Below, piece after piece: positions 5,057 to 60,339 of a stretch of DNA of 64,000 nucleotides. This DNA comes from Ruania zhangjianzhongii. Its GTDB lineage: Bacteria > Actinomycetota > Actinomycetes > Actinomycetales > Beutenbergiaceae. Each line of letters begins with the position of its first letter. Position 1 is the first letter of the stretch. The notes under the pieces were generated by a model that was not told the origin of the DNA, made no database searches, and saw only the letters and a program-made list of their open reading frames with translations. Both the position numbers and the translations under genes were made by a program. The stretch is taken from contig NZ_CP042828.1 in the NCBI RefSeq assembly GCF_008000995.1, positions 1,674,001 through 1,738,000 of the forward strand, written 5' to 3'.

Positions 5057-5104
5057 CCCATCGAGCGCACCGGCGCTGGACCCATCGAGCGCACCAGCGC
5101 TGGT
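5057..5104. repeat. Tandem direct repeat, 24 bp x 2, upstream of lhr
   Basis: Two adjacent 24-bp units (5057-5080 and 5081-5104) differ at only two positions (CACCGG/CACCAG and the last base). On the lhr strand each unit carries an in-frame ATGGGT, so the duplication repeats a potential start codon without shifting the frame. Confidence 0.85.
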
Positions 5105-5292
5105 CCAACGGTAACGACGGCAACGAGGTCAAGCTCCGGGATGTCACCAGCGGTTCTCTGTGCCGCTCGTTCCCGGAGATTGCCTCCGCTGATGCGTGCG
5201 GTGCGGCGCCCAGAAAAGAGAGTCGAGCCACCGGCATACGGCAACATGCGTGCGTGAGGTGACGCACGCCTGCAATCGCGCCTGACCGAGCG

Positions 5293-5315
5293 TTGTCGGT
5301 GCCTGGTGAGAGGCT
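5293..5315 (+). promoter_or_regulatory. PafBC/RecA-NDp-type DNA-damage promoter motif
   Basis: TTGTCGGTG at 5293-5301 matches exactly the first element of the LexA-independent actinobacterial damage promoter (TTGTCRGTG-N8-TAnnnT). Eight bases later is GAGGCT (5310-5315), one mismatch from TAnnnT. It reads toward the DUF222-HNH gene. The function is inferred from the motif. Confidence 0.55.
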
Positions 5316-5391
5316 ATGAATCAGTCGGACGGGTACCGGTTGTCTGTTGGGACGGTGCCCGTCCGGCGACATTCAGAGCGTGGCAAAGCCC

Positions 5392-5420
5392 TTGACATCA
5401 TCCACTCGAATTGGTACGTT
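5392..5420 (+). promoter_or_regulatory. Sigma70-type promoter of the HNH gene with overlapping LexA-like box
   Basis: TTGACA (5392-5397), a 17-bp spacer and TACGTT (5415-5420) form a near-consensus promoter. The ATG at 5427 lies 6 bases after the -10, implying a leaderless mRNA. GTAC-GTTT-GTTC at 5414-5425 is one base from the GAAC-N4-GTTC LexA core and overlaps the -10. Confidence 0.75.
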
Positions 5421-5426
5421 TGTTCT

Positions 5427-8003
5427 ATGGAGTTCGACGGCGAAGGTCCTGACCCGGAGGAGGCCTCTCCGGGCGATCAGGCGCGTTCGTCGAACATGGA
5501 AGAGGAGCGGCCGGAGCGTTTCGTGACCTTGCCGGTAGGCCCGGATGTCGGGCTGACCGAGGTGGTCGCAGCAGCGCAGGCAGTCGATCAGGCCCAGGCT
5601 GCTTGGCACCCGGGGATGATCTCCTCGCAGGTGGCTGAGGTCATCGCCGGAGCTGTGCCGGGAGCCTCGTTGGCGAGGACGCTGGAGGCGGCAGCGGGGC
5701 GAGACAGCGGCGAGCGGGATCAGGCGGCCAGGATCGAGCTGGTCGCCGCATGTGAGCGGATGATGGCTCATCTGGCCGGATTGCAGGCCGGATTCACGCA
5801 GGAGTTCCTCGATCAGCGGGGCCGCGGGTCCGGCGCGTTGACCGCTGTCCATGATGAGATCTCTGCTCGGTTGGCCACCACGTCCTATGCGGCCGGGTCG
5901 ATCATTACTCGCGCCGGAGCGCTGGACGAATCGCCTCGGCTGCGCGAGGGCCTGGCCTCGGGTGAGGTCTCGGCGCGCAAGGTGGATGTGATCGCTGCCG
6001 CCGTCTCCGGGCTGGGTCTGAAGGAGCGGGTGGTGCTCGAGGACTACGGCGTGGAGCTTGCGCCCACGCACACTCCGCCGCAACTGAAGAAGGCACTCGC
6101 TGCCGCGGTGATCGCCGCCGACCCGGCCAAAGCGGCAGAGCGGCACGACAAGGAAGTCGGGCAACGGTGCGTGAGCTTCGAGCCCGCGGCACACGGGATG
6201 TCCTGGTTGGGGATGTACCTGCCGGCCGAAGAGGGCCTGAGCATCTACACCTGCCTGGACTCGATCGCCGCCAGTAGGTCTGCCGACGACGAGCGGGGTA
6301 TTGATGCACGCCGTGCTGATGCGTTCACCGGGATCTTCACCCAGATCATGTCCTCCGGACGGTTGCCGGACGGGGCCGCGTTGCCCAGCCATCACGGGCA
6401 GGCCCCGCATCTGCGGCTATCGATCACCGCACCTGTGCTCGCAGGCGACGAGCACACCCCGGCCCTGCTGCACGGATACGGGCCGATCTGCGCCGACACC
6501 GCTCGCAAGCTGGCGATGCAGGCCGGAGCCCCAAGCGACTCGCTGATGGCGCCGGCGTTCTTCAAGCCCACATCCGCCACCCAGCAGGCGGCCACCGAAC
6601 CGACAACCGCCCAGCACGCCGGGACGGCGCCCGCGCACAACGGCAGCACGAATAACGGAACGAGGTCGACAGGTTCGTCGACTTCCGCTGCCAGGAGTGC
6701 CGCGTGCGGCACGAGCGGACTTGCGGCTCCGCCGACAATCGGTGATCCGACCGGAAATGCCGCCAGCTCAGCCGTGTGTCCAGCCACTGGCTCCCTAGCC
6801 GGAGACGCCGGCGGCCCAGCCACACCGCCCACCGGGGGCCCGGCAACCCTGGGCGGCGCGAGTTCGCCAAGTGTGCCTGGGATGAGTGTGCTCAGCGGTC
6901 CGTGCCAGGTTGCCCCCGGTGTCATCGTGAGCCTGGCCGCTCATCCGGGAGCGACCTGGAGTGAACGCTGTGACCTGGCCGAACGACTCGGCCCGGACGC
7001 CACGATGGAGCAGCTCGATGCGATCTACGGTCCGGCCCGTCCGTGGCCCGACCATCGGTCCCGGGCCGAAGACCTAGCGATCTGGCGCGAACTGCTCGGC
7101 GAGGAGCGACATCCGCCAGGTGCGCTGAGTCGGTCCACGAACATCGATTCCACGAGCATCAACCCCGGCGCCGATGATGTGGAGACCGCCGCCGGCACCG
7201 GCACCGGCACTGACGCCGGCACCGGCACTGATGCCGATGCTGAGTGGGACTGGATGTGCCGGTACCTGCCCGCCTTCGACCCGATGCGCGGCCTCTTGCC
7301 GCCGCCGCGGCCACCCCAGCTTCCCGACGGCACGGACGCCCAGGCGCTCATCGGTTGGCGGCAGCGCCACGAGCCGATCGCGGGCGGGGTCTGCCGCCAG
7401 GTTGAGGACGGCCTCGGAATGATCTGCACCGACGCCTACGCTCCATCCCGGCGGCTCCGGGCACGAATCGTCGAGCGGGATCAGACCTGCCGCTTTCCGA
7501 CCTGCCAGGTACCGGCGTGGCGCTGCCAGCTCGACCACATCGTGGCCTTCGATCCTCGCTTGCCTGCCTGGGCGCAGACCATCGAGACCAACCTGCACGC
7601 ATTGTGCGCACACCATCACCAGATCAAGACCGCTGGATTCTTCCGGGTCGAACGCGACTCGCGCAGTGGCATCACCACCTGGCATAGCCCCACCGGCCAC
7701 GTGTACGCGCGAAGCTCAGAGCACGCCGACTACACCGCAATCGCCCACCATCTGCGGGACGAGTACCACATGACGCTCTGTGAGGAGGGAGAGCGCCCGG
7801 TCACCGGCCTGGACACCGAGCGTCTGCACGCACTGTTGGCTGCAGCGCTCCCCGGCACCCCGGGAGGTCAGGCCGGCCAGACCGATCCCGCCCGTCAAGG
7901 ACGCAGCGCAACCGACCCCAGCGCAACAAACACCGGCGCAACCGGCGGCGCGCTGCCGACCCGGCCATTCACCTTTCCCGCCGACACGGAACCGCCTTTC
8001 TGA
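5427..8003 (+). CDS. DUF222 / 13E12-repeat family protein with C-terminal HNH endonuclease domain
   Basis: An 858-residue protein with an N-terminal DUF222 (13E12 repeat) region at about 30-330 and a long low-complexity Ala/Gly/Ser/Thr/Pro linker at about 385-480. A C-terminal HNH nuclease motif at about 688-733 has CRFPTCQ, a central QLDHIVAF and LCAHHHQIK, i.e. zinc-type cysteines plus HNH histidines. A second TGTGTD-type low-complexity patch precedes the nuclease. The family is multicopy in actinobacteria and several mycobacterial members are SOS-induced, but its physiological role is not established. ATG 5427 is chosen because it sits at the predicted transcription start; the frame is open back to 5316. 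The TGA stop begins a 33-bp tandem repeat. Confidence 0.9.
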   Translation: MEFDGEGPDPEEASPGDQARSSNMEEERPERFVTLPVGPDVGLTEVVAAAQAVDQAQAAWHPGMISSQVAEVIAGAVPGASLARTLEAAAGRDSGERDQAARIELVAACERMMAHLAGLQAGFTQEFLDQRGRGSGALTAVHDEISARLATTSYAAGSIITRAGALDESPRLREGLASGEVSARKVDVIAAAVSGLGLKERVVLEDYGVELAPTHTPPQLKKALAAAVIAADPAKAAERHDKEVGQRCVSFEPAAHGMSWLGMYLPAEEGLSIYTCLDSIAASRSADDERGIDARRADAFTGIFTQIMSSGRLPDGAALPSHHGQAPHLRLSITAPVLAGDEHTPALLHGYGPICADTARKLAMQAGAPSDSLMAPAFFKPTSATQQAATEPTTAQHAGTAPAHNGSTNNGTRSTGSSTSAARSAACGTSGLAAPPTIGDPTGNAASSAVCPATGSLAGDAGGPATPPTGGPATLGGASSPSVPGMSVLSGPCQVAPGVIVSLAAHPGATWSERCDLAERLGPDATMEQLDAIYGPARPWPDHRSRAEDLAIWRELLGEERHPPGALSRSTNIDSTSINPGADDVETAAGTGTGTDAGTGTDADAEWDWMCRYLPAFDPMRGLLPPPRPPQLPDGTDAQALIGWRQRHEPIAGGVCRQVEDGLGMICTDAYAPSRRLRARIVERDQTCRFPTCQVPAWRCQLDHIVAFDPRLPAWAQTIETNLHALCAHHHQIKTAGFFRVERDSRSGITTWHSPTGHVYARSSEHADYTAIAHHLRDEYHMTLCEEGERPVTGLDTERLHALLAAALPGTPGGQAGQTDPARQGRSATDPSATNTGATGGALPTRPFTFPADTEPPF

Positions 8004-8066
8004 CCGGGCATCTTGGCACCGGCACCGTGGGGCTGACCGGGCATCTTGGCACCGGCACCGTGGGCG
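8001..8066. repeat. Tandem direct repeat, 33 bp x 2, starting at the HNH stop codon
   Basis: Units 8001-8033 and 8034-8066 are almost identical (TGACCGGGCATCTTGGCACC and onward) and lie head to tail. The first three bases of unit 1 are the TGA stop of the HNH gene, so the copy repeats the stop codon and the following 30 bases. The second copy ends about 33 bases before the DUF3046 start. Confidence 0.93.
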
Positions 8067-8086
8067 GGTCCGTCGGTGGCGGCGAT

Positions 8087-8092
8087 TATCCT
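8087..8092 (+). promoter_or_regulatory. Candidate -10 element of the DUF3046 gene
   Basis: TATCCT lies 7 bases before the GTG at 8100 and fits TAnnnT. No -35 is recognisable. It implies a leaderless transcript, inferred from spacing only. Confidence 0.5.
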
Positions 8093-8099
8093 GGTCGCC

Positions 8100-8321
8100 G
8101 TGAAGCACTCCGAGTTCCAGCAGGCCATGCGCGACACCTTCGGCGCCTACGCCTCCTCTTTGGCTGAGGATATGGTGCTTGCCCCGTTGAGTAGCCGGAC
8201 TGCGAACCAGGCGCTCGCCGACGGCGCCCCGCCCGGGGTGGTCTGGGACGCGATCTGCACCGTCAACGAACTCGGCGAGGACGTGCGCTGGCGGCACCGC
8301 CGCGCGATCCGTGCAAAGTAG
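8100..8321 (+). CDS. DUF3046 family protein
   Basis: A 73-residue protein beginning VKHSEFQQAMRDTFG, with FGAYASSLAEDMVL and a VWDAICTVNELGEDVRW tail, the typical layout of DUF3046. This small actinobacterial family is usually encoded close to recA (for example Rv2738c beside M. tuberculosis recA); here recA starts 4.5 kb downstream. No function is known. The GTG at 8100 gives the usual family N-terminus. The upstream in-frame extension to 8046 would run through the 33-bp repeat and is disfavoured. Confidence 0.82.
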   Translation: MKHSEFQQAMRDTFGAYASSLAEDMVLAPLSSRTANQALADGAPPGVVWDAICTVNELGEDVRWRHRRAIRAK

Positions 8322-8351
8322 TAGCGCGCCAACTCCCGTGCCCCTGCATGT

Positions 8352-8357
8352 TAGATT
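8352..8357 (+). promoter_or_regulatory. Candidate -10 element of the ABC exporter operon
   Basis: TAGATT ends 6 bases before the ATG at 8364, giving a predicted leaderless start for the ATPase gene. No -35 match is visible. Confidence 0.55.
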
Positions 8358-8363
8358 GCTAGC

Positions 8364-9284: not shown

Positions 9285-9336
9285 GGCCCGACCGAATGGC
9301 GACCTCCCCGCGCCGGCCGGCCGGAACCAGGCACCC

Positions 9337-10182: not shown

Positions 10183-10183
10183 G

Positions 10184-10993: not shown

Positions 10994-11082
10994 GCCCACC
11001 GTCGCCGTGAGTCCCCCCGAGGGGAGGGCGCAGGGGCGGATAGGCTGCGGTGGTTGAGAGGTGCCGAGAGGGGGGAACGAGG

Positions 11083-11811: not shown

Positions 11812-11879
11812 TGCGTGCTCCGCACCCGGGGTGCAAATCCGGTTGACTGTCCCGCCGAGGGGCTGCCACGGTCGCGGTC

Positions 11880-12482
11880 GTGGCCCACGTGAGCAGCGCC
11901 GTCGTGCGCATCGAAACCAGCGGAGACCGTGCGGCGGTCTCCGCCGTGATCGAGCAGGCCTTCGAAGCCGAGGCGGCCGGGGAGGGCGTCCGGGTCCGGG
12001 GGCTGGAGCAGGCGCTGCAGACCGCGATGGCGCCGCGCGACCGGCTTGCCCTGGTGGCCGAGCACGGCCGCCAGATCGTGGGCCAGGCCCTGCTCACCCG
12101 CGGCTGGGTGGACGCCGACCAGCGCCTGGTGCAGGCGTGGGTACTCAGCCCGATCTCGGTCCGCCCGGACCACCAGCACACCGGCATCGGGCGGGAGTTG
12201 CTGACCGGCGTGATCGCCTGTGCCACCCGCGCTGCGGCCGAGCGCCCGGCCGACGATCCGGAGCGCCGCGTACATATCTTCCTCGAGGGCGACCCGGGCT
12301 TCTACCGCAAGTTCGGCTTCGTACCCGGTGATCGGGCGGGCTTCACCGCGCCGTCGGTACGCATCCCACCGTCGGCGTTCCAGGTGCTGGCGGTTGCCGA
12401 GGCCCCGGGCGTGAGTGGCGCCCTGGTGTACCCGGACGTGTTCTGGGCCCACGACTGCGTCGGCCTCCGGCGCGGAGCCTAG
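11880..12482 (+). CDS. GNAT-family N-acetyltransferase
   Basis: A 200-residue protein with a GNAT fold: residues at about 75-115 carry LVQAWVLSPISVRPDHQHTG followed by IGRELL, the acetyl-CoA pyrophosphate loop. The later LEGDPGFYRKFGFVP is typical of the YhbS-like group. The substrate is unknown. Two GTG codons (11880 and 11889) could start it; neither has a strong ribosome-binding site. The downstream end borders a degenerate GC-rich tandem repeat. Confidence 0.85.
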   Translation: MAHVSSAVVRIETSGDRAAVSAVIEQAFEAEAAGEGVRVRGLEQALQTAMAPRDRLALVAEHGRQIVGQALLTRGWVDADQRLVQAWVLSPISVRPDHQHTGIGRELLTGVIACATRAAAERPADDPERRVHIFLEGDPGFYRKFGFVPGDRAGFTAPSVRIPPSAFQVLAVAEAPGVSGALVYPDVFWAHDCVGLRRGA

Positions 12483-12483
12483 T

Positions 12484-12583
12484 CTTGGCGGGCGCGGGGC
12501 AACGTCGGCGCGCACGCGCGCAACCTCGGTCCAGGCGTGCGACCTTGGCGGGCACGCGCGCCACCTCGGCGCACGCGCGCAAC
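12484..12583. repeat. Degenerate tandem repeat, about 40-bp unit, 60-bp period
   Basis: Units at 12484-12524 and 12544-12583 both begin CTTGGCGGGC and end CACGCGCGCAAC, with changes between. The repeat directly follows the stop codon of the GNAT gene (TAG at 12480-12482). Confidence 0.65.
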
Positions 12584-12618
12584 ACGCAGCGGCGTGTCGG
12601 GCGCGGCGTCCCCAGGTA

Positions 12619-13869: not shown

Positions 13870-13876
13870 TCGGCCG

Positions 13877-14567: not shown

Positions 14568-14638
14568 TGCAGGGGAGCGCCGCGGGACGAGTGCGCCGGG
14601 CCATGCTGCAGGGGAGCGCCGCGGGACGAGTGCGCCGG
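14568..14638. repeat. Direct repeat, 32 bp x 2, 39-bp period, between recX and gluD
   Basis: Units 14568-14599 and 14607-14638 are identical over 32 bases (TGCAGGGGAGCGCCGCGGGA and onward) and are separated by 7 bases. They fill most of the 115-bp gap between the convergent recX and gluD genes. Confidence 0.93.
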
Positions 14639-16314: not shown

Positions 16315-17211
16315 TCAGCCGCACTCGGCCGGAGTCGGCGGGTTCAGGTCGGCGTTCGGGGTGTAGCCGGTGCCCTCGGTGTTGGAGGTGATGAACTCCT
16401 CCCAGCTACCGTCCTCGATCATCGCGTTGATCGCATCGGTGACCGGCTGGCACATGTCCGAGTCCGGGGGCAGACCGACACCGTAGTTTTCCTCGGAGAA
16501 GGTGTTGCCCACCACCTGCAGCTCGCCACCGCCGTCGGCAGCAGCCAGACCGGCGAGGATGATGTCGTCAGTGGTGACCGCGTCCACCTGGCCACCGGTG
16601 AGGTACTGGATGCACTCCGAGTACCCGTTCAGCTCCACCAGCTGGGTGTCCGGGGAGAACTCGTCCTTGACGTTCTGCGCCGAGGTGGACCCGGCCACCG
16701 AGCACAGGTTCCGCCCGTCCAGCACATCCGGACCGGTGATCTCGCCGGCGTCCTCGGAGCGGATCAGCAGGTCCTGACCGGCCACGAAGTACGGTCCGGC
16801 GAAGTCCACCACCTCATCCCGCTCGTCGGTGATCGAGTAGGTGGCCACGATCATGTCCACCTGCTCGTTCTGCAGCATCGTCTCCCGCTGCGGAGAGGGG
16901 GACTCGATCCACTCGATCTGGTCCTCGCCGTAACCGAGCTGGTCGGCGATGTAGGTGGCCACGTCCACGTCGAACCCGGTGTAGGTGTCGCCATCCTGGT
17001 AGCCCAGGCCCGGCTGGTCGAACTTGATCCCGATCCGGATCGAGTCCCCGCCACCCTCGCCGGAGTCGCCGCCCTCGCCCGTGTCGCCGCCCTCGGCACC
17101 GGCGTCACCGCCGGTCTCCTCGTCGCCGGCCCCCGGCTCGGCGGTACAGGCGGCAAGGGTGAGGGCCCCCACGGCCGCCAGTGCGGCCAGCGCTGCTCGC
17201 GTTGTCTTCAT
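16315..17211 (-). CDS. gluB: Glutamate-type ABC transporter substrate-binding lipoprotein GluB
   Basis: A 298-residue family 3 periplasmic-type binding protein. It has a lipoprotein signal with lipobox LAAC (Cys22), then an acidic Gly/Glu/Asp-rich linker at about 25-56, then the binding domain starting IRIGIKFDQPGLGYQDGDTY with the family motif GFDVDVATYIA. It should capture glutamate or a related polar amino acid outside the membrane and deliver it to GluCD. The specificity is inferred from the gluABCD gene order. Confidence 0.92.
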   Translation of the reverse strand: MKTTRAALAALAAVGALTLAACTAEPGAGDEETGGDAGAEGGDTGEGGDSGEGGGDSIRIGIKFDQPGLGYQDGDTYTGFDVDVATYIADQLGYGEDQIEWIESPSPQRETMLQNEQVDMIVATYSITDERDEVVDFAGPYFVAGQDLLIRSEDAGEITGPDVLDGRNLCSVAGSTSAQNVKDEFSPDTQLVELNGYSECIQYLTGGQVDAVTTDDIILAGLAAADGGGELQVVGNTFSEENYGVGLPPDSDMCQPVTDAINAMIEDGSWEEFITSNTEGTGYTPNADLNPPTPAECG

Positions 17212-19718: not shown

Positions 19719-20555
19719 GTGAGCTCCCGCGGGATACCCGTACGCGGACCGCTGCCATCCTCCGGGCGTCGCCAGGGGGTGCGGCTCCTCCGGTTCGCGG
19801 TCGACGACGGCGCAGCCGCCGTGGTCCGACACGTCTGGGTGCCGCTGTGGTCTCTACCCCCAGGTGAGCAGGTGGTCCAGGAGACGTTGCAGTACCCAGG
19901 CGGGAACGTCGTCGTGATGGCCGACGAGGCCGGCTTCTACGGTGTGGACGCCGGTCTGGGCACCCGGACCCTGGCTGGCACCGGCTGGGGCGTGGGGGTG
20001 CTGCTGCGACCAGCCGCGGCCGCCCTGCTGCTCGCCGGTGAACCGGCGCGTGCGGTGCGGCCGGGACCGGGGCGGATGGACGTCGGCCCTGCGATCGGAG
20101 CCGAGCGCACCGATCTGGGTGAGGACTTCGCCACGGTGTGTACGCAGATCCGCGAGCTGATGCCCACCGATCCGCAGACCGCCGGCCGGGCGCTCACCGA
20201 CTGGGTGCGGACGCGGTGCGGGCCGGTCGACCCGGAGGGTGAGCTCGCGAATGCGGCCGCGGACCTGGCCGAGAGCGCAGCGGCGGACACCGTCGCGGAG
20301 CTGGCCGAACGGGTCGGGGTGGGCGAGCGGCAGCTGCAACGGATCTGTCGGCGGCGGATCGGGCTCAGCCCGAAGTGGCTGCTGCAGCGCCGCCGACTGC
20401 AGCAGGCCGCCGCGCAGCTGGGGGAGGAGGACGCGCCCGCGCTGGGCGATCTAGCCGCCGAGCTCGGCTACACCGACCAGGCACACTTCACCCGAGACTT
20501 CACCACTGTGGTCGGCCGTCCACCGGGCCGGTTCCGCCGGGAACAGCGCAGCTGA
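19719..20555 (+). CDS. AraC-family transcriptional regulator
   Basis: A 278-residue protein with a C-terminal AraC helix-turn-helix pair: VAELAERVGVGERQLQRICR then DLAAELGYTDQAHFTRDFTT and VVGRPPGRFRR. The N-terminal ~150 residues resemble the ligand-binding half seen in AraC proteins with a DUF6597-type sensor. It starts at GTG 19719, 7 bases after miaB. A VOC protein gene follows about 100 bases downstream and may be its target, which is inference. Its stop codon is duplicated by an 11-bp tandem repeat. Confidence 0.88.
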   Translation: MSSRGIPVRGPLPSSGRRQGVRLLRFAVDDGAAAVVRHVWVPLWSLPPGEQVVQETLQYPGGNVVVMADEAGFYGVDAGLGTRTLAGTGWGVGVLLRPAAAALLLAGEPARAVRPGPGRMDVGPAIGAERTDLGEDFATVCTQIRELMPTDPQTAGRALTDWVRTRCGPVDPEGELANAAADLAESAAADTVAELAERVGVGERQLQRICRRRIGLSPKWLLQRRRLQQAAAQLGEEDAPALGDLAAELGYTDQAHFTRDFTTVVGRPPGRFRREQRS

Positions 20556-20571
20556 GCCACAGCTGAGCCAC
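20550..20571. repeat. Tandem direct repeat, 11 bp x 2, over the AraC-type stop codon
   Basis: AGCTGAGCCAC occurs at 20550-20560 and again at 20561-20571. The first copy contains the TGA stop (20553-20555) of the regulator gene, so the duplication repeats the stop. Confidence 0.75.
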
Positions 20572-30302: not shown

Positions 30303-30362
30303 GTGGGATCGGCCCGCTATCAGTGGGATCGGCCCACTTTCAGCGGGGTCGGAGAGTGCTCA
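30303..30362. repeat. Tandem direct repeat, 20 bp x 3, ending at the aldo-keto reductase stop codon
   Basis: Units start at 30303, 30323 and 30343. The first two are near identical (GTGGGATCGGCCCRCTWTCA) and the third is diverged. Each ends in TCA; read on the minus strand each begins with TGA. The TCA at 30360-30362 is the true stop of the aldo-keto reductase, so the stop module is present three times. Confidence 0.88.
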
Positions 30363-31500: not shown

Positions 31501-31596
31501 ATCGGTTCGAACTCATGCCCCCGCCGGCCGCGATGGGTCCGAACTCATGCCCGCGCCGGCCGCGATAGGTTCGAACCCATGACCCCTCGACGCCGC
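31501..31596. repeat. Tandem direct repeat, 32 bp x 3, carrying a -10 and start codon
   Basis: Units 31501-31532, 31533-31564 and 31565-31596 have an exact 32-bp period. Each contains a GGTYCGAAC block followed by ATG (31515, 31547, 31579). Only the last has a full TAnnnT hexamer (TAGGTT; the others have TCGGTT and TGGGTC), and its ATG is the start of the proline iminopeptidase gene. Because 32 is not a multiple of 3, the three ATGs are in three different frames. Confidence 0.93.
31566..31571 (+). promoter_or_regulatory. -10 element of the proline iminopeptidase gene, inside the third repeat unit
   Basis: TAGGTT is followed by 7 bases and the ATG at 31579. It implies a leaderless mRNA starting at the codon itself. 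Confidence 0.6.
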
Positions 31597-41282: not shown

Positions 41283-41378
41283 GACCGGCCCGGGCCTCCC
41301 GGCTAGAGTGCGTCGGCTCGTTCCTTAGGGCTCCGACCGGCCCGGGCCCCGGCTACGGTGCGTCGGCCCGTTCCTTCA
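41283..41378. repeat. Direct repeat, about 45 bp x 2, copying the 3' end of the transglutaminase gene
   Basis: Units 41283-41327 and 41335-41378 share most bases (GACCGGCCCGGGCC through GTGCGTCGG and CGTTCCTT). Unit 2 contains the last eight codons and TAG stop of the transglutaminase gene on the minus strand. Unit 1 is a diverged copy of that end, including the CTA (stop) trinucleotide. Confidence 0.88.
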
Positions 41379-43506
41379 TCTCGTCGCGATCCTTACGGTC
41401 GGACTTGATCTGCGTCACCCACTCCCGCACCGTCTGCGGGTCGGCGTCCCTGCCGCCGGGAGCGTACCGGGACCGTTCCACGGCGGCAGCGAGGGCATGC
41501 AGCGCTGAGCGTGCGGACTCGCTGCTGAGCACGTCGTCGCCGGCTGCGGCCACCGCCCGGGGTGTGGAGCCTGGCCGGACCTGCCCCCCGGCTGCCCGAA
41601 CGACGCCGACCGCCTGGTGCCATCCGGTCTCGAGCTCACCGCTGGAGCGCGCCCGATAGCGCCGGACCGCGAGAGCCCCACCGAGCCCGATCACCAGCAG
41701 TGCAGCCAGCACCACGATGCCGGGCAGTGCCGAGGAAGGATCGGCGGTGCCGGCCGCCTCGGTCCCGTCCTCGCTGCTGGCTTCCTCGCTACTCTCCTCC
41801 TCGGCGCTGGTGGTCGTGGAGGTCTCCTCCTCCGGTTCGGTGGTCTGCGTCGGCCCGGTGGTCGGCGGTTCCGGAGTCTGCGCAGCAGGTTCCGGCGCCC
41901 AGGATGGTGTCGTCCCGGCCTGCACACCCGGGGTGGGCTCGAACCGTACCCAGCCGACGTCCGGGAACAGCACCTGGGGCCAGGCATGGGCCTGGTGCGC
42001 GCTGATGCTGGCGGTCCCGTCCTCCTGAGTCTCACCGGGCAGGTAACCCACGGCCACTCGAGCAGGCAGATCCAGCGTGCGGGCCATCACCACCATCGCG
42101 GTGGCGAACTGTACGCAATAGCCGCGCCGGTCATGCAAGAAGTCCCACACCGCATCGCGGGTGCGGGCGCTGGTGACCGACTCGGTGTAGGTGAACAGCT
42201 CGGGGTCACGGAGATAGTTCTGGACCGCGAGGAGCTGTTCGTACGCGGTCTCGGCACCGGCGTCGGTCACGATCTCCTGGGTCAGCTCGGCGACATCGGG
42301 TCCGTAACCAGTGTCCGGGATCTGGAGCAGGGCGGGGTCTGCATCGAGCTCGGTGGGATCGAGGTCCGAGAGCGCGGCGGCACTCAGATCCCGGGTCCGG
42401 TACGTCACCCGGTAGGTCAGCTCGCCCGGTGCCGCCTGTTCCAGCCGGACTTCGTCGGCGGCGGCAGAGTAGGAGGTCGCACTGTCCACCTCGACGCGGC
42501 GCGGTTCGCCCGGGATCGGCAGGCGATCCTGTCCCAGGTCGGTGATCGTGATGGTCGCGCTCTCGCCCTCCTCAGTCTCCACCTGGTCCGGCCAGAGCAG
42601 TCGGTTGTCGGCGTTCTCCCACTCCTCGGGCGGCGTGCGGTCCCAGGTGGAGCCGTTGAAGGTGGTGAGCGTATAGGCGTGTAAGGGTCCCAGCTCACGC
42701 GGGCTCGCTCCCTCATAGGTCATCACCACAGCGTCCCGAGGGCGGTTCAGGTCCGAACGCAGATCCAGGCCCAGGTCGAGGCGGGTGGAATCGGCGTCCG
42801 CGAGCTCGGCCGGCGAGTGCCAACGCACCGGGCTGGGGATGGACAGCACCCAGGGTGCGGCGACCAGCGCGACGGCGAGCACACCAGCGGTCAGCACCGC
42901 CAGTGCTCCCATCCGGCGCGGACTCGTTCGCCCGGTCGGCTCCCGCCAGGCTTCGGCACCGGTCGCCAGCATGGCCAGGAAACCCACCCCGGTGGCCACG
43001 ATCGCCGGAGTACGCACCGGGGCCAGCAGCAGCACCGGGAGAGCCCAGATCGACAGGATCGGCAGCAACGCCCAGGCGGGCGACTTGCCCGGGACGGCGA
43101 GCAGGTCCGCGAGCAGGTAGACCAGGGCAATGGCGCAGGTGACCATCAACCCCACCCCAGGGGCGTCGTCGATCGGTGGCAGTGCCACCTCGATCGAGGT
43201 CAGTCCACGGCCGAACAGGAGGTACAGCGTGGTGACCGCGGACCTGGTCGGGAGGATGCCGAGGAGCGCATCGTCGTGCGCGTACCAGGCGGTGATGGTG
43301 AGCACGGCGGCCAGCGTCGCCACCAGTGACGGAAGCAGCGTGCGACGCGTCCAGCGGCGTAGCAGGGAGAGCACGGTGAAGATCACCACTACCGTGGTGG
43401 CCACCGGAGCGAGCCAGAGCGAGGGGGCGACCAACCGGTCCAGGGCGAACGTGCTCGCCAGTGCGGTGATCGCGGTGGCGAGGCTGAGCAGGACGGCGCG
43501 GATCAC
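41353..43506 (-). CDS. Transglutaminase-like membrane protein (TgpA-type)
   Basis: A 717-residue protein with about six N-terminal transmembrane helices (to about 225), a large extracytoplasmic part containing a transglutaminase-like core, a Thr/Glu/Ser-rich linker near 545-590, one more helix near 605, and a cytoplasmic DUF4129-like tail. The Cys-His-Asp triad fits RRGYCVQF (about 463), HAWPQVLF (about 505) and PDVGW (about 515). GTG 43506 overlaps the DUF58 stop (GTGA). It is third in a MoxR-DUF58-transglutaminase operon, a common unit of unknown surface role. Confidence 0.92.
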   Translation of the reverse strand: MIRAVLLSLATAITALASTFALDRLVAPSLWLAPVATTVVVIFTVLSLLRRWTRRTLLPSLVATLAAVLTITAWYAHDDALLGILPTRSAVTTLYLLFGRGLTSIEVALPPIDDAPGVGLMVTCAIALVYLLADLLAVPGKSPAWALLPILSIWALPVLLLAPVRTPAIVATGVGFLAMLATGAEAWREPTGRTSPRRMGALAVLTAGVLAVALVAAPWVLSIPSPVRWHSPAELADADSTRLDLGLDLRSDLNRPRDAVVMTYEGASPRELGPLHAYTLTTFNGSTWDRTPPEEWENADNRLLWPDQVETEEGESATITITDLGQDRLPIPGEPRRVEVDSATSYSAAADEVRLEQAAPGELTYRVTYRTRDLSAAALSDLDPTELDADPALLQIPDTGYGPDVAELTQEIVTDAGAETAYEQLLAVQNYLRDPELFTYTESVTSARTRDAVWDFLHDRRGYCVQFATAMVVMARTLDLPARVAVGYLPGETQEDGTASISAHQAHAWPQVLFPDVGWVRFEPTPGVQAGTTPSWAPEPAAQTPEPPTTGPTQTTEPEEETSTTTSAEEESSEEASSEDGTEAAGTADPSSALPGIVVLAALLVIGLGGALAVRRYRARSSGELETGWHQAVGVVRAAGGQVRPGSTPRAVAAAGDDVLSSESARSALHALAAAVERSRYAPGGRDADPQTVREWVTQIKSDRKDRDEMKERADAP

Positions 43507-44633: not shown

Positions 44634-45785
44634 TCAGGAATCCACCGGAACCCGAGCGAGGATGTCGGCCACGACGTCTTCGGCCACCGTGCCCTCCACC
44701 CGAGCCGTGCGCGCCAGTGTGAGCCGGTGGGCCAGCACCGCCACACCGAGCGATTGCACGTCGTCGGGGAGCACGTAGTCACGGGCTTGCAGGTAGGCGA
44801 GCGCTTTGGCGAGCGCTACCAGGTGCAGGCCTGCGCGCGGGGATGCGCCGAGCTGGACACTCTCGTGCTCGCGGGTGGCGCGCAGGACGGTCATCAGATA
44901 GCGCAGTACCGAGTCCGAGACGTGCACCGCACGCACAGCTGCCCCAGCGGCCTTGACGTCTTCCGGGCTCATCACCGCCTCGATTCCGCTGAGCGGATCC
45001 CCGAATCCGCCGGTGGCGAGGATGGCGAACTCCTCGGCGTCGGGTGGGTAACCGAGACTCACCCGCGCCATGAACCGGTCCTGCTGGGCCTCCGGCAACC
45101 GGTACGTGCCGTCCATCTCCACGGGGTTCTGCGTGGCGATCACCATGAACGGTTCCGGCAGCCGGTGGGTGGTGCCGTCCACGGTGACCTGCCGCTCGGC
45201 CATGCACTCCAACAAGGCCGACTGTGTCTTCGGGGACGCGCGGTTGATCTCGTCCCCGATCACCACAGTGGCGAACAGCGGGCCGGGATGAAACTCGAAG
45301 GTGCCGGTCTCCTGCCGGTAGATGGTGACCCCGGTCAGGTCGCTGGGCAGCAGGTCCGGGGTGAACTGGATCCGGCCGAGCGTGCCGGACACCGATCTGG
45401 CCAGGGCCTTGGCCACTGTGGTCTTCCCGACGCCGGGGACGTCGTGCAGCAGCAGGTGGCCGTGGGCCAGGAAGGTGGCCAGGATCGTGCGGACGGTCTC
45501 TGGTCGACCGGGGAGCACCTGAGTGAGGTTCCCCTCGAGCCGTCGGATCGCCGCCACCGGATCCACATCTTTGCTCGCTGTCGGGGCTTGTCCGGTCGCG
45601 GCTGTCTCGCCGTCCCCGGGCCCCGGACCCGCCGCGCCCGCCGCATCGTCCCCGGGCCCCGGACCCGTCGCGCCCGTCGCGCCCGTCGCGCCGGCCCCGG
45701 CCACCGGCACTGGGGCCGACCGTACGGGCGGCACCGACGGGAGGGGGTGCTCGGGTGGAGTGGGCGGGGCGGGTTGGGCGGGCAT
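44634..45785 (-). CDS. MoxR-family AAA+ ATPase
   Basis: A 383-residue AAA+ chaperone: a Pro/Ala/Gly-rich N-terminus of about 75 residues with a repeated GATGATGPGPGDD-type pattern, Walker A HDVPGVGKTT (about 113-122), Walker B VVIGDEINRASPKTQ, sensor 1 ATQNP, and arginine finger region QQDRFMARV. First gene of the minus-strand operon. The ATG at 45785 lies 7 bases from a TAGGCT -10. The low-complexity N-terminus is longer than in most MoxR proteins. Confidence 0.94.
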   Translation of the reverse strand: MPAQPAPPTPPEHPLPSVPPVRSAPVPVAGAGATGATGATGPGPGDDAAGAAGPGPGDGETAATGQAPTASKDVDPVAAIRRLEGNLTQVLPGRPETVRTILATFLAHGHLLLHDVPGVGKTTVAKALARSVSGTLGRIQFTPDLLPSDLTGVTIYRQETGTFEFHPGPLFATVVIGDEINRASPKTQSALLECMAERQVTVDGTTHRLPEPFMVIATQNPVEMDGTYRLPEAQQDRFMARVSLGYPPDAEEFAILATGGFGDPLSGIEAVMSPEDVKAAGAAVRAVHVSDSVLRYLMTVLRATREHESVQLGASPRAGLHLVALAKALAYLQARDYVLPDDVQSLGVAVLAHRLTLARTARVEGTVAEDVVADILARVPVDS

Positions 45786-45990: not shown

Positions 45991-46419
45991 TTGTTCCTCG
46001 GTACGTATGAACCTCGATTGGACGACAAGGGCCGCCTGATCCTGCCCGCAAAATTCCGCGACCAGATGGCCGGCGGAATCGTCATCACCCCAGGTCAGGA
46101 CCGCTGTCTGTACGGGTATCCGATGGCCACCTTCGAGGAAATCGTGGCCGAGATACAGACGGCGTCGACCACGTCCAAGCGGAACCGAGACTTCATCCGC
46201 GTGTTCCTCTCCGGTGCCAACGACGAGATCCCGGACAAGCAGGGCCGGGTCACCCTCACCTCGAAACTGCGCCGATACGCAGGCCTGGAGCGCGAGCTCG
46301 CCGTCGTCGGTGCCGGCGGCAGGGTCGAGATCTGGGACCTCGAGGCCTGGAACACCTACCTCGCCGCCAACGAACAGTCTTTCGCCGATATCAGCGAGGA
46401 GGTGGTCCCCGGCTTCTGA
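45991..46419 (+). CDS. mraZ: Transcriptional regulator MraZ
   Basis: A 142-residue protein with two AbrB-like SpoVT domains ([20 protein letters not shown] and the second around [16 protein letters not shown]), forming a ring that binds direct repeats and represses the dcw cluster. The start is TTG at 45991, supported by the invariant family N-terminus and GGGGGTGG upstream. Its likely operator lies 31-58 bases upstream. Confidence 0.96.
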
Positions 46420-46528
46420 GCCTCCGCCCGACCTGGTCTCTCACCGCAGTCTCTGACGCACTTCCCCGGCGCCAGAGCAGGCGGGGAGAGTCCAGGCCGG
46501 GTGGCGGAACCAGATCCCAGCCGGGCTG

Positions 46529-46580
46529 CTCCACTTCGCTCCACCACAGCGCTCCTCCACTTCGCTCCACCGCAACGCTC
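46529..46580. repeat. Tandem direct repeat, 26 bp x 2, between mraZ and rsmH
   Basis: Units 46529-46554 and 46555-46580 (CTCCACTTCGCTCCACCRCA and onward) differ at two positions. They lie 110 bases after mraZ and 36 bases before rsmH. Confidence 0.88.
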
Positions 46581-46616
46581 CACCCAGCACCACCAGCGAC
46601 CCGATCCAGGAAGGCC

Positions 46617-52740: not shown

Positions 52741-53831
52741 TCGCGATCCTCGTCTCCGGGGCTGTGGCGTTGATCGTCTCCCTGCTCGGCACCCCGTTGT
52801 TCATCCGGTTCCTCGTGCACCGCAACTATGGCCAGTTCATCCGTCAGGACGGCCCGACGGCGCACTTCACCAAACGCGGTACCCCCACCATGGGTGGGGT
52901 GGTCATTATCGTGTCCACGCTGGTGGCGTACGCGTTCGCCTCCGCAGTCACCGGCAACATGCCTAGCGCCTCCGGGCTGCTGGTGCTGTTCCTGATGGTC
53001 GGCCTGGGGGTGGTCGGGTTCCTGGACGACTTCACCAAGATCACCCGGCAGCGCTCCCTCGGGCTGAGCCCGCTGTGGAAGATCGTCGGCCAGGGCGTGG
53101 TCGGCGTGGTGTTCTCGGTACTGGTGCTGCAGTTTCCGAACGAACGGTTCCGCACGCCGGCGAGCACGCACATCTCCTTCACCCGCGACCTGTGGCTGGA
53201 CCTGGCTTTCGCCGGGGCCGGCCTGGGCCTGGTGCTGTTCGTGATCTGGGCGAACTTCCTCATCACCGCCTGGTCGAACGCCGTCAACCTCACCGACGGT
53301 CTGGACGGTCTGGCCACCGGGGCGAGCATCTTCGTGTTCGGCGCCTACACCCTGGTGACCTTCTGGCAGATGAACCAGAGTTGCCAGGTGCTCTCCGTGG
53401 TGGCCTCCGAAAGCGGTGCGAGCTGTTACGAGGTGCGAGACCCGCGGGACCTGGCCATCGTGGCCGCGGCGATCGTCGGCGCCTGCTTCGGCTTCCTCTG
53501 GTGGAACGCCTCGCCGGCGAAGATCTTCATGGGTGACACCGGTTCGCTCGCCCTCGGTGGTGCGCTCGCCGGACTGACCATTCTCACCCGGACCGAGATC
53601 CTCGGGGCGATCATCGGTGGCCTGTTCGTGGTGATCATCCTCTCCGACGTGATCCAGATCGGGTTCTTCAAGGCCACCGGCAGACGGGTCTTCAAGATGG
53701 CTCCACTGCACCACCACTTCGAGCTGCTCGGCTGGGGTGAGGTGACGATCGTGATCCGGTTCTGGATCATCGCCGCGCTGTTCGCGAGCCTGGGGCTGGG
53801 TCTGTTCTACGCCGAGTGGGTCACTGGATGA
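52737..53831 (+). CDS. mraY: Phospho-MurNAc-pentapeptide transferase MraY
   Basis: A 364-residue integral membrane enzyme making lipid I. About ten helices, with the conserved GTPTMGGV near 42-49, FLDDFTK, the [13 protein letters not shown] loop and a [12 protein letters not shown] motif, plus the C-terminal HHHFELLGW histidine loop. It starts at GTG 52737, coupled to murF. Confidence 0.97.
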
Positions 53832-53922
53832 GTGTGCCGAGCCCTCACGGAGGTAGGTCGAGGAACGAGATCTGCCGGAGCGAGGCACCGCATACCCCGG
53901 CCACGAACGGCACGGGTGGAGC

Positions 53923-55377
53923 ATGACTATCGACGAGTTCCGCGACCGCCGGGTACTCGTTGCCGGGCTGGGCGCCTCGGGGCGCTCCGCAGTCGCCGTG
54001 CTCACCGAGATCGGTGCCCGCGTCATAGCTGCCGACGCCGACCCGCAGGTGGCCGACCGGGTCGAGCTTCCTACGCAGGTGCCGCTGGTCGCCGAGGCGG
54101 ATCCGGACCGGCTTGCCGAGAGGGCGTTGGCCGCGGAACCGGACCTGATCGTGGCCTCGCCGGGCTGGAACCCGCGCACCCCGATGCTGGCCCGCGCCGC
54201 AGTGGAGGTGATCAGCGAGGTCGAGCTGGCGTGGCGGATCGCGCCGCCCGGTATCCGCTGGCTCACCCTGACCGGCACCAACGGCAAGACCACCACGGTC
54301 GGGATGCTCGCCTCGATGCTGACCGCACACGGCTGGAACGCCCCGGCAGTGGGAAACGTGGGCACCCCGATCGCCGAGACCGTGCTCGCCGCTCGCAGTG
54401 GTCCGGCGCCGCTCGATGCGCTCGCCGTGGAGCTCTCCAGCTTCCAGCTGCACTTCACCCACGCTCTCGCCCCAGTGGCCTCCGCCTGCCTGAACATCGA
54501 CGCCGACCACCTGGACTGGCACGGCTCGATGGACGCCTATGTGGCGGACAAGGCGCGGGTCTATGCCCGCACCGGGCTGGCCTGCGTCTACAACAGCGCC
54601 GATTCGCGCACCCGGCAGATGGTCGAGCAGGCGGAGGTGGCTGAGGGCGCCCGGGCGATCGGTTTCACTCTCGGCACTCCGGCCCTCGGCGAGGTGGGCC
54701 TGGTCGAGAATGTGCTCGCGGACCGCGCATTCGTGCCCAATCGAGCCAGCCACGCCGCAGAGGTGGGCACCCTTGCCGATCTGGCTCACCTGCACCAGGG
54801 GTCCGAGCACGACGTCCCGGGCCACCTGGTGGCGAACGCCCTCGCGGCGGCTGCGCTCGCCCGGGCCGCCGGAGTGGAGCCGGCGGACGTGTCCGCTGGG
54901 CTACGCGGTTACACCGGCGGCCCGCACCGGATGCAGCCGGTCGCCGAGATCGACGGTGTGCGCTACATCGACGACTCCAAGGCGACCAATGCGCACGCCG
55001 CCGCCGCCGCCTTGGCGGCGATGCCCGAGGGCGGGACGGTGTGGATCGCCGGGGGGCTGGCCAAGGGGGCCAGGTTCGACGAACTGGTGGCGCGCTTTGC
55101 GGCCAAACTGCGCTCCGCCGTCGTGATCGGTCTCGATCCGGAGCCTATCGAGAGTGCACTTGCCCGACACGCGCCCGACATCCCGCGCCACGTGGTGCCC
55201 GCTGGCGACACTGAGGTCATGAGCACTGCCGTGACCCGTGCCGCCGCCCTCGCCCAGCCTGGCGATGTGGTGCTGCTCGCGCCGGCCTGTGCGTCGATGG
55301 ACCAGTTCACCTCCTATGCGGCCCGCGGAGATGCGTTCGCCGCTGCTGTGGCACAGGTGGCCGGGGAGCGCAGATGA
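53923..55377 (+). CDS. murD: UDP-MurNAc-L-alanine:D-glutamate ligase MurD
   Basis: A 484-residue Mur ligase adding D-Glu: an N-terminal GLGASGRSAVAV UMAG-binding loop, ATP site TLTGTNGKTTT, LNIDADHLDWHGSM and the central YIDDSKATNAHA. The 91-base gap after mraY is the largest between murE and ftsQ and holds nothing I recognise. ATG 53923 follows GGGTGGAGC. It overlaps ftsW by 4 bases. Confidence 0.96.
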   Translation: MTIDEFRDRRVLVAGLGASGRSAVAVLTEIGARVIAADADPQVADRVELPTQVPLVAEADPDRLAERALAAEPDLIVASPGWNPRTPMLARAAVEVISEVELAWRIAPPGIRWLTLTGTNGKTTTVGMLASMLTAHGWNAPAVGNVGTPIAETVLAARSGPAPLDALAVELSSFQLHFTHALAPVASACLNIDADHLDWHGSMDAYVADKARVYARTGLACVYNSADSRTRQMVEQAEVAEGARAIGFTLGTPALGEVGLVENVLADRAFVPNRASHAAEVGTLADLAHLHQGSEHDVPGHLVANALAAAALARAAGVEPADVSAGLRGYTGGPHRMQPVAEIDGVRYIDDSKATNAHAAAAALAAMPEGGTVWIAGGLAKGARFDELVARFAAKLRSAVVIGLDPEPIESALARHAPDIPRHVVPAGDTEVMSTAVTRAAALAQPGDVVLLAPACASMDQFTSYAARGDAFAAAVAQVAGERR

Positions 55378-57801: not shown

Positions 57802-59183
57802 GGGCGCACTTCATCGCGATCGGCGGCGCCGGAATGTCCGTGATCGCCGAGCTGATGCTGGCCCAGGGCACCGAGGTGAGCGGTTCGGACCAGGCTGACT
57901 CCCCGGTGCTGCAGCGGCTCGCGGCGCTCGGTGCCACCGTGCACGTCGGCCACGACGCCGAGCACGTGCACGGCGCGGACGTCGTGGTGGTCTCCACGGC
58001 GATCCGCCCGGACAACCCGGAAGTGCTCGCGGCCCGCGAGCTGGGGATCGAGGTGATCCATCGTTCCGAGGCGCTCGCCCGCGCGGCGCGGGAACAGGAT
58101 TTCGTCGCCGTGGCAGGAGCGCACGGGAAGACCACGACCTCGGCGATGCTCGCACTCGCCCTGGCCGATCTGGGCGCGGACCCGAGCTACGCGATCGGCG
58201 CACAGCTGCGCGGCCGGGGCAGCGGTGGCCACCTCGGCGAGGGCGGAACGTTCGTGGCCGAGGCGGACGAGTCGGACGGGTCCTTCCTCGCCTATCACCC
58301 CCGGGTCGCCGTGGTGACGAATATCGAGCCCGATCATCTGGACCACTACGGCACCGAGGAAGCCGTGCACCAGGCGTTCGCCGACTTCGCCGCTCGGATC
58401 GTGCCCGGCGGTCTGCTGGTGGCCTGCACCGATGATCCCGGTGCTGCTGCGCTCGCCCGCCGGGTGGCAGCCCAGGGGGTTCGGGTGCTCGGCTACGGTG
58501 CGGCACCGGTCGAGGGCCTGTCTCAGGTGCGGATCGAGGCGGTGGAGCTGGGCGCCGAGGGCTCGAGCGCGGTGCTGGTCGATGCCGGCTCCGACGAACC
58601 GCCCACGACGCTGGCCCTGGTGGTGCCCGGGGAGCACAACCTGCGTAACGCGACAGCTGCCTGGTGCGCCGGACGAGAGCTCGGAGCGCCGCCGGAGGCA
58701 CTGGCGCGGGCTTTGGGCACGTTCACCGGGACCGCACGCCGGTTCGAGGACCGTGGCAGTGCGGGCGGGGTCCGGGTAGTGGACGACTACGCCCACCACC
58801 CCACCGAGGTCGCCGCCCTGCTGGCCACCGCTCGGCGGGTCGCCGGCAGCGGGCGCGTGCTGGTGCTGTTCCAGCCACACCTGTTCTCCCGGACCGAGGC
58901 GTTCGCGGAAGCCTTTGCCGGCGCCCTGACCGCCGCCGATGCCGTAGTACTGACCGCGATCTACCCGGCCCGGGAGGAGCCACGGGCGGAGGTCACCTCC
59001 GCGCTGATCGCCGACCGGCTCCCCGGAGCGCAGTATCTACCCGACCATCAGCAGGCCGCGCATGCCGTCGCCGACCTCGCCGCGCCTGGCGACCTGGTGC
59101 TCACCGTAGGCGCCGGGGACGTCACCGCGCTCGGCCCGGTGATCCTGGCGCGACTGACCACTGGCGGGCAGGAGCAGCGATGA
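57798..59183 (+). CDS. murC: UDP-MurNAc:L-alanine ligase MurC
   Basis: A 461-residue Mur ligase adding the first stem residue: N-terminal GGAGMSVIAELML, ATP loop VAGAHGKTTTSAM, EADESDGSFL, NIEPDHLDHYG and VVDDYAHHPTEVAA. It lies in the murD-ftsW-murG-murC-ftsQ order usual for actinobacteria and overlaps both neighbours by 4 bases. Confidence 0.97.
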   Translation: MRAHFIAIGGAGMSVIAELMLAQGTEVSGSDQADSPVLQRLAALGATVHVGHDAEHVHGADVVVVSTAIRPDNPEVLAARELGIEVIHRSEALARAAREQDFVAVAGAHGKTTTSAMLALALADLGADPSYAIGAQLRGRGSGGHLGEGGTFVAEADESDGSFLAYHPRVAVVTNIEPDHLDHYGTEEAVHQAFADFAARIVPGGLLVACTDDPGAAALARRVAAQGVRVLGYGAAPVEGLSQVRIEAVELGAEGSSAVLVDAGSDEPPTTLALVVPGEHNLRNATAAWCAGRELGAPPEALARALGTFTGTARRFEDRGSAGGVRVVDDYAHHPTEVAALLATARRVAGSGRVLVLFQPHLFSRTEAFAEAFAGALTAADAVVLTAIYPAREEPRAEVTSALIADRLPGAQYLPDHQQAAHAVADLAAPGDLVLTVGAGDVTALGPVILARLTTGGQEQR

Positions 59184-60310
59184 GAGCGCCGACCCAGCCG
59201 CGGGTGCGGGCCGGCCAGAAGCGCCCGGAGCCCGGCCAGCAGACGACGACGGCTACGTCCGGTGGTGCTGCCAAGAAGACCGGCAAGTCCGGTAAGGGTG
59301 GCAAGGCTGGCAAGGCCAGCACTGCGACCAACGCCGGTACGGCGAGCAAGTCTGGCGCAGCTGGCAAGGCCAGCACTGCGACCAAGGCCGGTACGGCCAC
59401 GCCGACCGCCGAGAGCCCGAAGAGGGCCACATCAGCCGCGACGACCAGCACGGGCCGTACCTCAGCCAAGCCCGCGACCACGAAGGAGACCGGTACCCGC
59501 AGCACCGTCTCGGTGGCACCGCGGGCGCGCGAGCTGACAGCCCCGGGTCGCGAGCGAGGGCGGGTCACTGCGCAGTTCGCCGAGCGGCTGGCCGAACGCC
59601 GCGCGGCGGTGCGCCGGCTGCGCTGGCGCACGATCGCCCTGGTGGCCGGCGGTGCCCTGGTCCTCGCCGTACTCGCCTACGTGGTGCTGTTCTCTGCGCT
59701 GCTCGCGCTGCGCAGCGCAGAGATCGAGGTGACCGGTACCAACCAGATCGTCTCCGAGGAGGAGGTGCTGGACATCGTCGCCGCTGCGGACGGCACCCCG
59801 TTGGCCCGGTTGGACACCGCTGGGCTGGCGGAGGAGCTGACCACGATCGTCGGGGTCCGGGACGCTCATCTGGAGCGGGCCTGGCCGCACGGACTGCAGG
59901 TGGTGATCGAGCCGCGGGTCCCGGTGGCGATCGTGCAGGACGGCGACCGGTACGCCGTCCTCGATGGCGAAGGTGTGGTGCTGAGCCGGGCGGATGAGCC
60001 GGCCGAGGACCTGCCACAGGTGGCGGTGCCGCTGGGGGAGGAGAGTACCGCTGCCTCATTGACCGCCGTGCTGGAGGTGCTGGATGCTCTGCCCGAAGAC
60101 CTGCTCGCCGAAGTAGCCGCCGCCAGCGCGCCGTCGCCGAACCAGGTGAGTTTTGAGCTGCCGGACGGCGTCGAGGTGTTCTGGGGCAGCTCTGCGGAGA
60201 ATCCACTCAAGGTCGAAGTGCTGCAGACCATTCGGCAGGTGGAGGCGACCGGTTATGACGTCTCGGCGCCCCGTGCGCCGATCACGATCGGAGAACCGGA
60301 GAGCGAGTAG
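59180..60310 (+). CDS. ftsQ: Cell division protein FtsQ with long repetitive N-terminus
   Basis: A 376-residue bitopic protein. A cytoplasmic N-terminus of about 150 residues is rich in Ala, Lys, Thr and Gly and contains an 18-residue duplication (AGKASTATNAGTASKSGA / AGKASTATKAGTATPTAE). It is followed by one helix at about 153-177, a POTRA domain (LRSAEIEVTGTNQIVSEEEV) and the FtsQ beta domain. Most FtsQ tails are shorter. The ATG overlaps the murC stop. Confidence 0.93.
   Translation: MRAPTQPRVRAGQKRPEPGQQTTTATSGGAAKKTGKSGKGGKAGKASTATNAGTASKSGAAGKASTATKAGTATPTAESPKRATSAATTSTGRTSAKPATTKETGTRSTVSVAPRARELTAPGRERGRVTAQFAERLAERRAAVRRLRWRTIALVAGGALVLAVLAYVVLFSALLALRSAEIEVTGTNQIVSEEEVLDIVAAADGTPLARLDTAGLAEELTTIVGVRDAHLERAWPHGLQVVIEPRVPVAIVQDGDRYAVLDGEGVVLSRADEPAEDLPQVAVPLGEESTAASLTAVLEVLDALPEDLLAEVAAASAPSPNQVSFELPDGVEVFWGSSAENPLKVEVLQTIRQVEATGYDVSAPRAPITIGEPESE
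59307..59397 (+). repeat. In-frame direct repeat in ftsQ, 54-bp period
   Basis: A 37-base block (CTGGCAAGGCCAGCACTGCG and onward) at 59307-59343 recurs at 59361-59397, a 54-bp period equal to 18 codons. The repeat stays in frame and lengthens the cytoplasmic tail. Confidence 0.85.
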
Positions 60311-60311
60311 C

Positions 60312-60339
60312 CCGACACGCCCAGGGGCCGACACGCCCA
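60312..60339. repeat. Direct repeat, 12 bp x 2, just after ftsQ
   Basis: CCGACACGCCCA occurs at 60312-60323 and 60328-60339 (16-bp period), one base after the ftsQ TAG stop. Confidence 0.6.

Follow-up and report, generated by a model that had tools for sequence, protein, structure and literature searches.

Short tandem duplications in the gene gaps of a 64-kb stretch of Ruania zhangjianzhongii, and a dispersed hairpin-bearing element at its mraY-murD junction

Short tandem repeats lying between genes are known from several described systems. We compare these here with the short intergenic arrays of a 64,000-nucleotide stretch of the actinobacterium Ruania zhangjianzhongii (G000:C2:1674001-1738000, hereafter the window), in which an earlier note, made from the letters alone, had listed ten sites of tandem duplication at gene boundaries, and with a dispersed element at the mraY-murD junction of the same stretch. 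The arrays share with intergenic minisatellites, or variable-number tandem repeat loci, their head-to-tail units of 10-100 bp, their locus-specific sequences, their siting in gene gaps and their 2-5 copies; they differ in that many have only about two copies, and the nearest genomes compared are other species, at 82-87% identity. The tandem repeats of the archaeal Borgs are independent and fast-evolving, about half of them are intergenic or start in gene ends, and units inside open reading frames (ORFs) are divisible by three (PMC9879509). In all three respects the arrays are alike, whereas Borg repeats are perfect, A-rich and present in many copies and the arrays are GC-rich, often imperfect and mostly of 2-4 copies. 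Finally, mycobacterial interspersed repetitive units (MIRUs) are short dispersed repeats that sometimes stand in tandem and carry a small ORF whose overlap with the adjoining gene has a spacing of -4 nt, in the form ATGA (PMC12548453, PMC3914561). The element at position 53828 of the window has this same architecture, and the comparison with MIRUs concerns it alone. The arrays exceed chance by far, are built of unrelated units, keep the frame when inside genes, avoid starts, are densest after stops, and occur at a similar rate in other actinobacteria.

Short tandem arrays in the gaps between genes

Arrays were counted in 824 kb of the source genome, G000 (5.1 Mb in two contigs), made up of 39 stretches: 37 of 20 kb from the main contig, one from the small contig, and the window. 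Genes were predicted with a purpose-written simple hexamer caller, without curated annotation. The array detector was likewise purpose-written (periods 10-100, match +1, mismatch -3, simple repeats with a sub-period below 10 bp excluded), Tandem Repeats Finder (TRF) served as second detector, and five rounds of first-order Markov shuffles gave the null for array counts. The genus set consisted of eight genomes, G000-G007; the closest to G000 are G004, with 82-87% nucleotide identity in the pieces that align, and G002. For other actinobacteria we used 67 dcw loci of high GC, 13 of 80 loci having been omitted for a GC of at most 0.66, where the gene caller is invalid.

All ten listed sites proved to be tandem or nearly tandem, 60312 barely so. 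TRF reported seven of them, and the remaining three (14568, 41283 and 60312) were checked by local alignment against 500 shuffles:

5056-5103: 24-bp unit, 2.0 copies (TRF); left edge of a segment of about 3 kb absent at that place in G002 and G004
8000-8064: 33-bp unit, 2.0 copies (TRF); the gene called at 5496-8003 has its TGA stop within the unit; the array bounds that segment on the right
12484-12583: degenerate array of about four copies of units of about 20 bp (by TRF 12499-12583, 19 bp, 4.2 copies, 70% matches), directly 3' of the stop of the gene called at 11880-12482
14568-14638: exact 32-bp duplication with a 7-bp spacer, in a convergent gap; local alignment score 32, shuffled maximum 18
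20549-20571: 11-bp unit, 2.1 copies (TRF), spanning the TGA stop of the gene called at 19872-20555
30303-30352: 20-bp unit, 2.5 copies (TRF), in a convergent gap; mostly without counterpart in G004 and G002
31504-31586: 32-bp unit, 2.6 copies (TRF), ending at the ATG of the gene called at 31579; the unit contains an ATG
41283-41377: unit of about 52 bp, two copies with a 2-bp indel (local alignment of 44 against 42 bases, one 2-bp gap; score 33, shuffled maximum 16); the second copy extends to the stop of the minus-strand gene called at 41353-43506
46525-46581: 26-bp unit, 2.2 copies (TRF), between the mraW leader RNA (46418-46514) and rsmH (46617)
60312-60339: exact 12-bp duplication with a 4-bp spacer (16-bp period), directly 3' of the stop of the gene called at 59180-60310; score 12, shuffled maximum 11, the weakest case

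Apart from the spacers at 14568 and 60312, the copies follow one another head to tail in units of about 10-100 bp, as in minisatellites. Our detector found nine intergenic arrays in the window, namely eight of the ten listed sites and one further array at 45611-45676, and the last four pairs on the earlier list behave as arrays do elsewhere in the genome. The window has a higher density of arrays (9 in 5.9 kb of gaps) than the other stretches (48 in 98.5 kb, P=0.0045), a comparison that concerns a feature chosen after the window had been read.

Across the whole sample our detector found 57 intergenic arrays, or 54.6 per 100 kb, where shuffles gave 0.2 arrays, and TRF (score 50, period 10-100) gave 64 against 3.7, both far above the rate expected from base composition. 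The note's statement that the units are unrelated and form no single family holds as well: related units occur in just two pairs among the 57 arrays, both made up of arrays that overlap at a single locus, and none of the 57 has similar DNA elsewhere in the sample. That coding sequence is almost free of such repeats does not hold: our detector finds 26 arrays there, at 3.6 per 100 kb and with 1.4 arrays in shuffles, and TRF reports 78 coding arrays (20 in shuffles), including examples in the window beyond the ftsQ tail that had been named as an exception. The period is divisible by three, keeping the frame, in 22 of the 26 coding arrays (binomial P=1e-7) and in 75 of the 78 reported by TRF.

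Position relative to genes is where the earlier interpretation, which finds partial support overall, needs most revision. On the stop side the density of arrays per 10 kb is 7.7 at 0-30 bp, 13.9 at 30-60, 10.8 at 60-120, 5.2 at 120-240 and 3.1 at 240-600 bp; on the start side the corresponding values are 0.6, 7.4, 5.7, 5.0 and 8.5. The peak thus lies 30-120 bp beyond the stop and not at the stop itself. The suggested enrichment within 60 bp of stop or start codons is found for stops in G000 (25/57 against 13.3 expected, 1.9-fold, P=5e-4; 20/48 against 10.9, P=0.003, when the window is left out) and fails for starts, near which arrays are fewer than expected (11/57 against 16.3). In the 67 loci of other genera starts are likewise depleted (9/65 against 17.8, P=0.008). 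It is correct that some units hold a stop (those at 8000 and 20549) or an ATG (31504); nevertheless, the 9 of 57 arrays that cover a stop codon are what random placement gives (7.5), and only 2 cover a start codon where 8.7 would be placed at random (P=0.003). Among the 54 arrays that lie between two called genes, convergent gaps are the densest (14 in 12.4 kb, 112.7 per 100 kb), followed by same-direction gaps (34 in 54.9 kb, 61.9 per 100 kb) and divergent gaps (6 in 24.4 kb, 24.6 per 100 kb). The positional rule is therefore one of avoidance of starts and genes and tolerance of the gaps after stops, with no attraction to the codons, and the idea of a process that duplicates DNA specifically at gene edges is not borne out.

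Origin of the arrays

We consider it likely that the arrays are ordinary early-stage intergenic minisatellites, produced by random tandem duplication and filtered by selection. In such a scheme, stretches of about 10-70 bp would be duplicated in tandem anywhere on the chromosome, in part where replication slips or switches template between short direct repeats and in part through homology-free joining. Within genes nearly only the frame-keeping duplications would persist, around starts and in divergent promoter regions few would, and in the gaps after stop codons most would. A duplication across a stop codon would leave the first copy joined to the gene and the protein unchanged, and in a duplication across a start the last copy would stay joined. 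Since the gene-joined copy is unchanged by a duplication that crosses the edge, the stop and start cases need no special system, and slippage or microhomology-mediated duplication together with purifying selection would account for the pattern. The direct support for this argument is the alignment at 31504, where, as expected, G004 and G002 match just the 3'-most copy, the one adjoining the gene start; the gap of this site in G004 holds a different array, of period 20. How the duplications arise, and that selection is what filters them, we infer from these distributions. If both are right, random duplications can seem directed at gene edges through selection alone, which is a caution for the reading of raw sequence.

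The junctions of near-perfect two-copy arrays bear on the mechanism. In G000, 8 of 14 such arrays run at least 4 bases past the two copies and 6 run at most 1; in the other genera, of 19 arrays, 7 run at least 5 bases past, 4 run 2-3 and 8 run at most 1. These numbers point to microhomology-based slippage or template switching for part of the arrays and to homology-free joining for part.

Array rates were also compared with those of relatives. The 67 dcw loci hold 65 arrays in 127 kb of intergenic DNA, or 51.2 per 100 kb, close to the value for G000; the most in any of them is 8 arrays in 3.0 kb of gaps, at the locus of Wenjunlia tyrosinilytica (L104). Within the genus, eight arrays of the window could be aligned to congeners and none is an array in G004 or G002, at a distance where intergenic DNA aligns poorly; for the 14568 site G002 is the only comparable congener. 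Syntenic stretches of G001-G007 hold 12 arrays in 39.2 kb of gaps (G002 none, G004 one, G006 four), and random stretches of G001, G003, G005 and G007 hold 5 in 40.6 kb. Three of the 12 syntenic arrays are tandem copies of the junction element treated below (G003 1815497, G005 2623098, G006 126221), and keeping them in the count makes the contrast with G000 conservative. G000, with 57 arrays in 104 kb against 17 in about 80 kb, thus exceeds its congeners about 2.6-fold (P=2e-4; P=0.0016 without the window). A genome of the same order, G156, is on a par with G000 at 70 per 100 kb (12 arrays, 17 kb of gaps), and because of this genome and the 67 loci the level of G000 is to be called high in its genus but not unique. 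The 2.6-fold difference is a natural starting point for asking what determines how often bacterial minisatellites are born. Extra Y-family polymerases, of which seven of the eight genomes of the genus encode two and G004 (92% complete) one, were considered as its cause and rejected, for their count does not set G000 apart.

Several of these results weigh against random duplication under selection as a complete account. The excess of G000 over its congeners is not predicted by a uniform background process, and when only scores of at least 20 are counted, G000 stands above the other genera as well (33 in 104 kb against 25 in 127 kb, P=0.048). The stop-side excess of G000 is not significant in the 67 loci (18/65 within 60 bp against 15.1 expected, P=0.23). 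Finally, the 6 of 14 arrays without junction homology beyond 1 base imply that slippage alone is insufficient for all arrays, and some of the other 8 may be partial third copies.

The best of the competing explanations, which we nevertheless judge unlikely, is non-homologous end joining by Ku and LigD of staggered breaks, the fill-in of which would duplicate short stretches. Ku is encoded in all eight genomes of the genus, and the six clean two-copy arrays without junction homology are what such joining would leave. The other eight of those 14 have microhomology, however, and the Ku-bearing genomes of the genus range from no arrays (G001 and G007) to 54.6 per 100 kb (G000), so that the universal presence of Ku led us to reject it as the cause of the rate differences. 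Nor is there a clear relation across the order, where Ku-positive genomes range from 0 to 70 and Ku-negative genomes from 0 to 35 per 100 kb, rates that rest on 3-5 stretches per genome with poor gene calls in several (G174 and G193 were unusable, 70% and 99.7% being called intergenic through failed gene calling, and G125 and G126, with 30% and 23%, are doubtful). Of the earlier suggestion of slippage or end joining combined with selection, slippage with selection fits the data.

More doubtful still is a duplication process tied to transcript ends, through termination, R-loops or collisions of transcription with replication, which would favour arrays after genes. The 1.9-fold excess near stops in G000 and the high density of convergent gaps speak for it, yet relaxed constraint predicts the same gradient and the stop excess loses significance in the other genera. 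Moreover, the units do not fold significantly more stably than local intergenic DNA in G000 (mean percentile 0.57, Kolmogorov-Smirnov P=0.11), nor are those of the 65 arrays of the other genera (P=0.49), for which reason duplication of hairpins or terminators as such was also rejected. That the arrays are copies of one mobile family anchored on stops and starts, such as the MIRU-like element at 53828, is very improbable: such a family does exist in G000 and forms tandem pairs of 87-90 bp period in congeners, but the only significant match of its covariance model in the window is 53828-53893 itself (E=1.6e-17; the next at E=0.46), none of the ten arrays is such an element, and the lack of similar DNA for any of the 57 arrays refutes a single repeat family behind them. 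Chance or base composition can practically be dismissed, since shuffles never reach the observed number, even though high GC raises random matching and 60312 taken alone is weak.

The element at the mraY-murD junction

One repeat of the window is truly anchored to a gene boundary; it is not among the ten arrays, and we regard it as mattering more than they do. BLAST of the dcw region found a 66-bp stretch at the mraY-murD junction that recurs across the genus:

53828-53893, + strand: 66-bp core of a dispersed element that lies between mraY and murD, is anchored in ATGA and bears a hairpin
53828-53925, + strand: mini-ORF of the element, overlapping both neighbours in ATGA, its ATG with the mraY stop and its TGA with the murD ATG

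BLAST gave 72 matches in all eight genomes of the genus and in none of three genomes of other genera in the family. A covariance model built from 12 copies (cut-off E<=1e-4, genomes being counted among the matches listed) matched 12 of 248 genomes of the order, seven of the Ruania genus and five of genus g102, probably Isoptericola, hence 2 of 86 genera; in the same family, 12 genomes from other genera gave no match. The DNA query, run over 296 genomes of the class, gave strong matches only in G000 and G130 and seven weak ones, and no match was found in plasmids and phages. As a look for sequence kinship with MIRUs, model R1 was run against 201 genomes of family f6, presumed to contain Mycobacterium, and gave one weak match (E=3.8e-4).

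The anchoring is consistent between copies. Wherever a full-length copy has a called gene upstream (ten cases), it begins within the stop of that gene, as ATGA or, once, GTGA; the remaining copies comprise the second members of two tandem pairs, two copies located at the edge of a stretch and one missing its 5' half. The frame from the ATG of the element is open through the core in all 14 full-length copies; in seven it stops at a TGA that overlaps the next ATG, and in the other seven it reads on into a following ATG. Third codon positions (variation 0.204) are no more variable than first (0.266) or second (0.215) positions, which implies that the peptide is not the conserved thing. The two-hairpin structure, itself partly derived from the same sequences, is paired in 83% of cells against 75% in shuffles and carries 14 double changes against 5.2, a number reached in none of 500 shuffles; RNAalifold predicts 15 pairs, five with a compensatory change. 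For the single copy of the window the predicted fold is of only moderate quality (z=-1.61).

Within the genus the mraY-murD junction is found both with and without the element. The site is empty in G001 and G007, where the two genes overlap in ATGA, and also in G002 and G004; G000 holds one copy, G003 and G005 two each, and G006 one and part of another. In G003 the same ATGATC stands at both ends of the element, as a target duplication would leave it. In G005 (L217:57-230) two identical copies stand in tandem, and there the downstream gene itself starts with the first bases of a further copy.

As a dispersed repeat within the 46-101 bp of MIRUs, also found in tandem (66-bp core, period 87-90 bp), and with a small ORF overlapping its neighbours at -4 nt, the element is probably a new family of the MIRU kind. 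It differs from MIRUs in its genus and in its covarying hairpin. MIRUs are not known to have dyad symmetry. The one literature search aimed at the element found no published description of it. We lean towards the view that it represents an unreported mobile family, MIRU-like and outside mycobacteria, which would insert into the ATGA overlaps of co-directional genes, supply a coupled mini-ORF so that neither gene is harmed, be kept for its hairpin and not its peptide, have reached two genera of different families, and amplify in tandem at its site, the ten arrays being separate background duplications. If this is true, there is a second family of MIRU architecture, and the empty and filled mraY-murD sites within one genus would open the insertion mechanism of such elements and their effect on coupled translation to testing in non-mycobacterial laboratory hosts.

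Further repeats and neighbours in the window

The window contains an intergenic array that the earlier note did not list, and in-frame coding arrays:

45611-45676: 36-bp unit, 1.8 copies, in a divergent gap
7198-7236: in-frame coding array, 18 bp, 2.2 copies (TRF)
17049-17095: in-frame coding array, 18 bp, 2.6 copies (TRF)
59311-59389: in-frame degenerate coding array, 18 bp, 4.4 copies (TRF), the ftsQ exception of the earlier note

By TRF, the coding arrays of the window with a period divisible by three are those at 909, 7198, 17049, 51186, 59311 and 63799. The segment of about 3 kb bounded by the arrays at 5056 and 8000 (about 5060-8050, with the gene called at 5496-8003) has a different tandem duplication at each edge; it is missing at this place in G002 and G004, which have related DNA elsewhere (G002:C7 and G004:C323), and the ORF at 5316-8003 had no NCBIfam match. 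The mraW leader RNA (RF01746, 60.1 bits) lies at 46418-46514, directly 5' of the 46525 array and rsmH.

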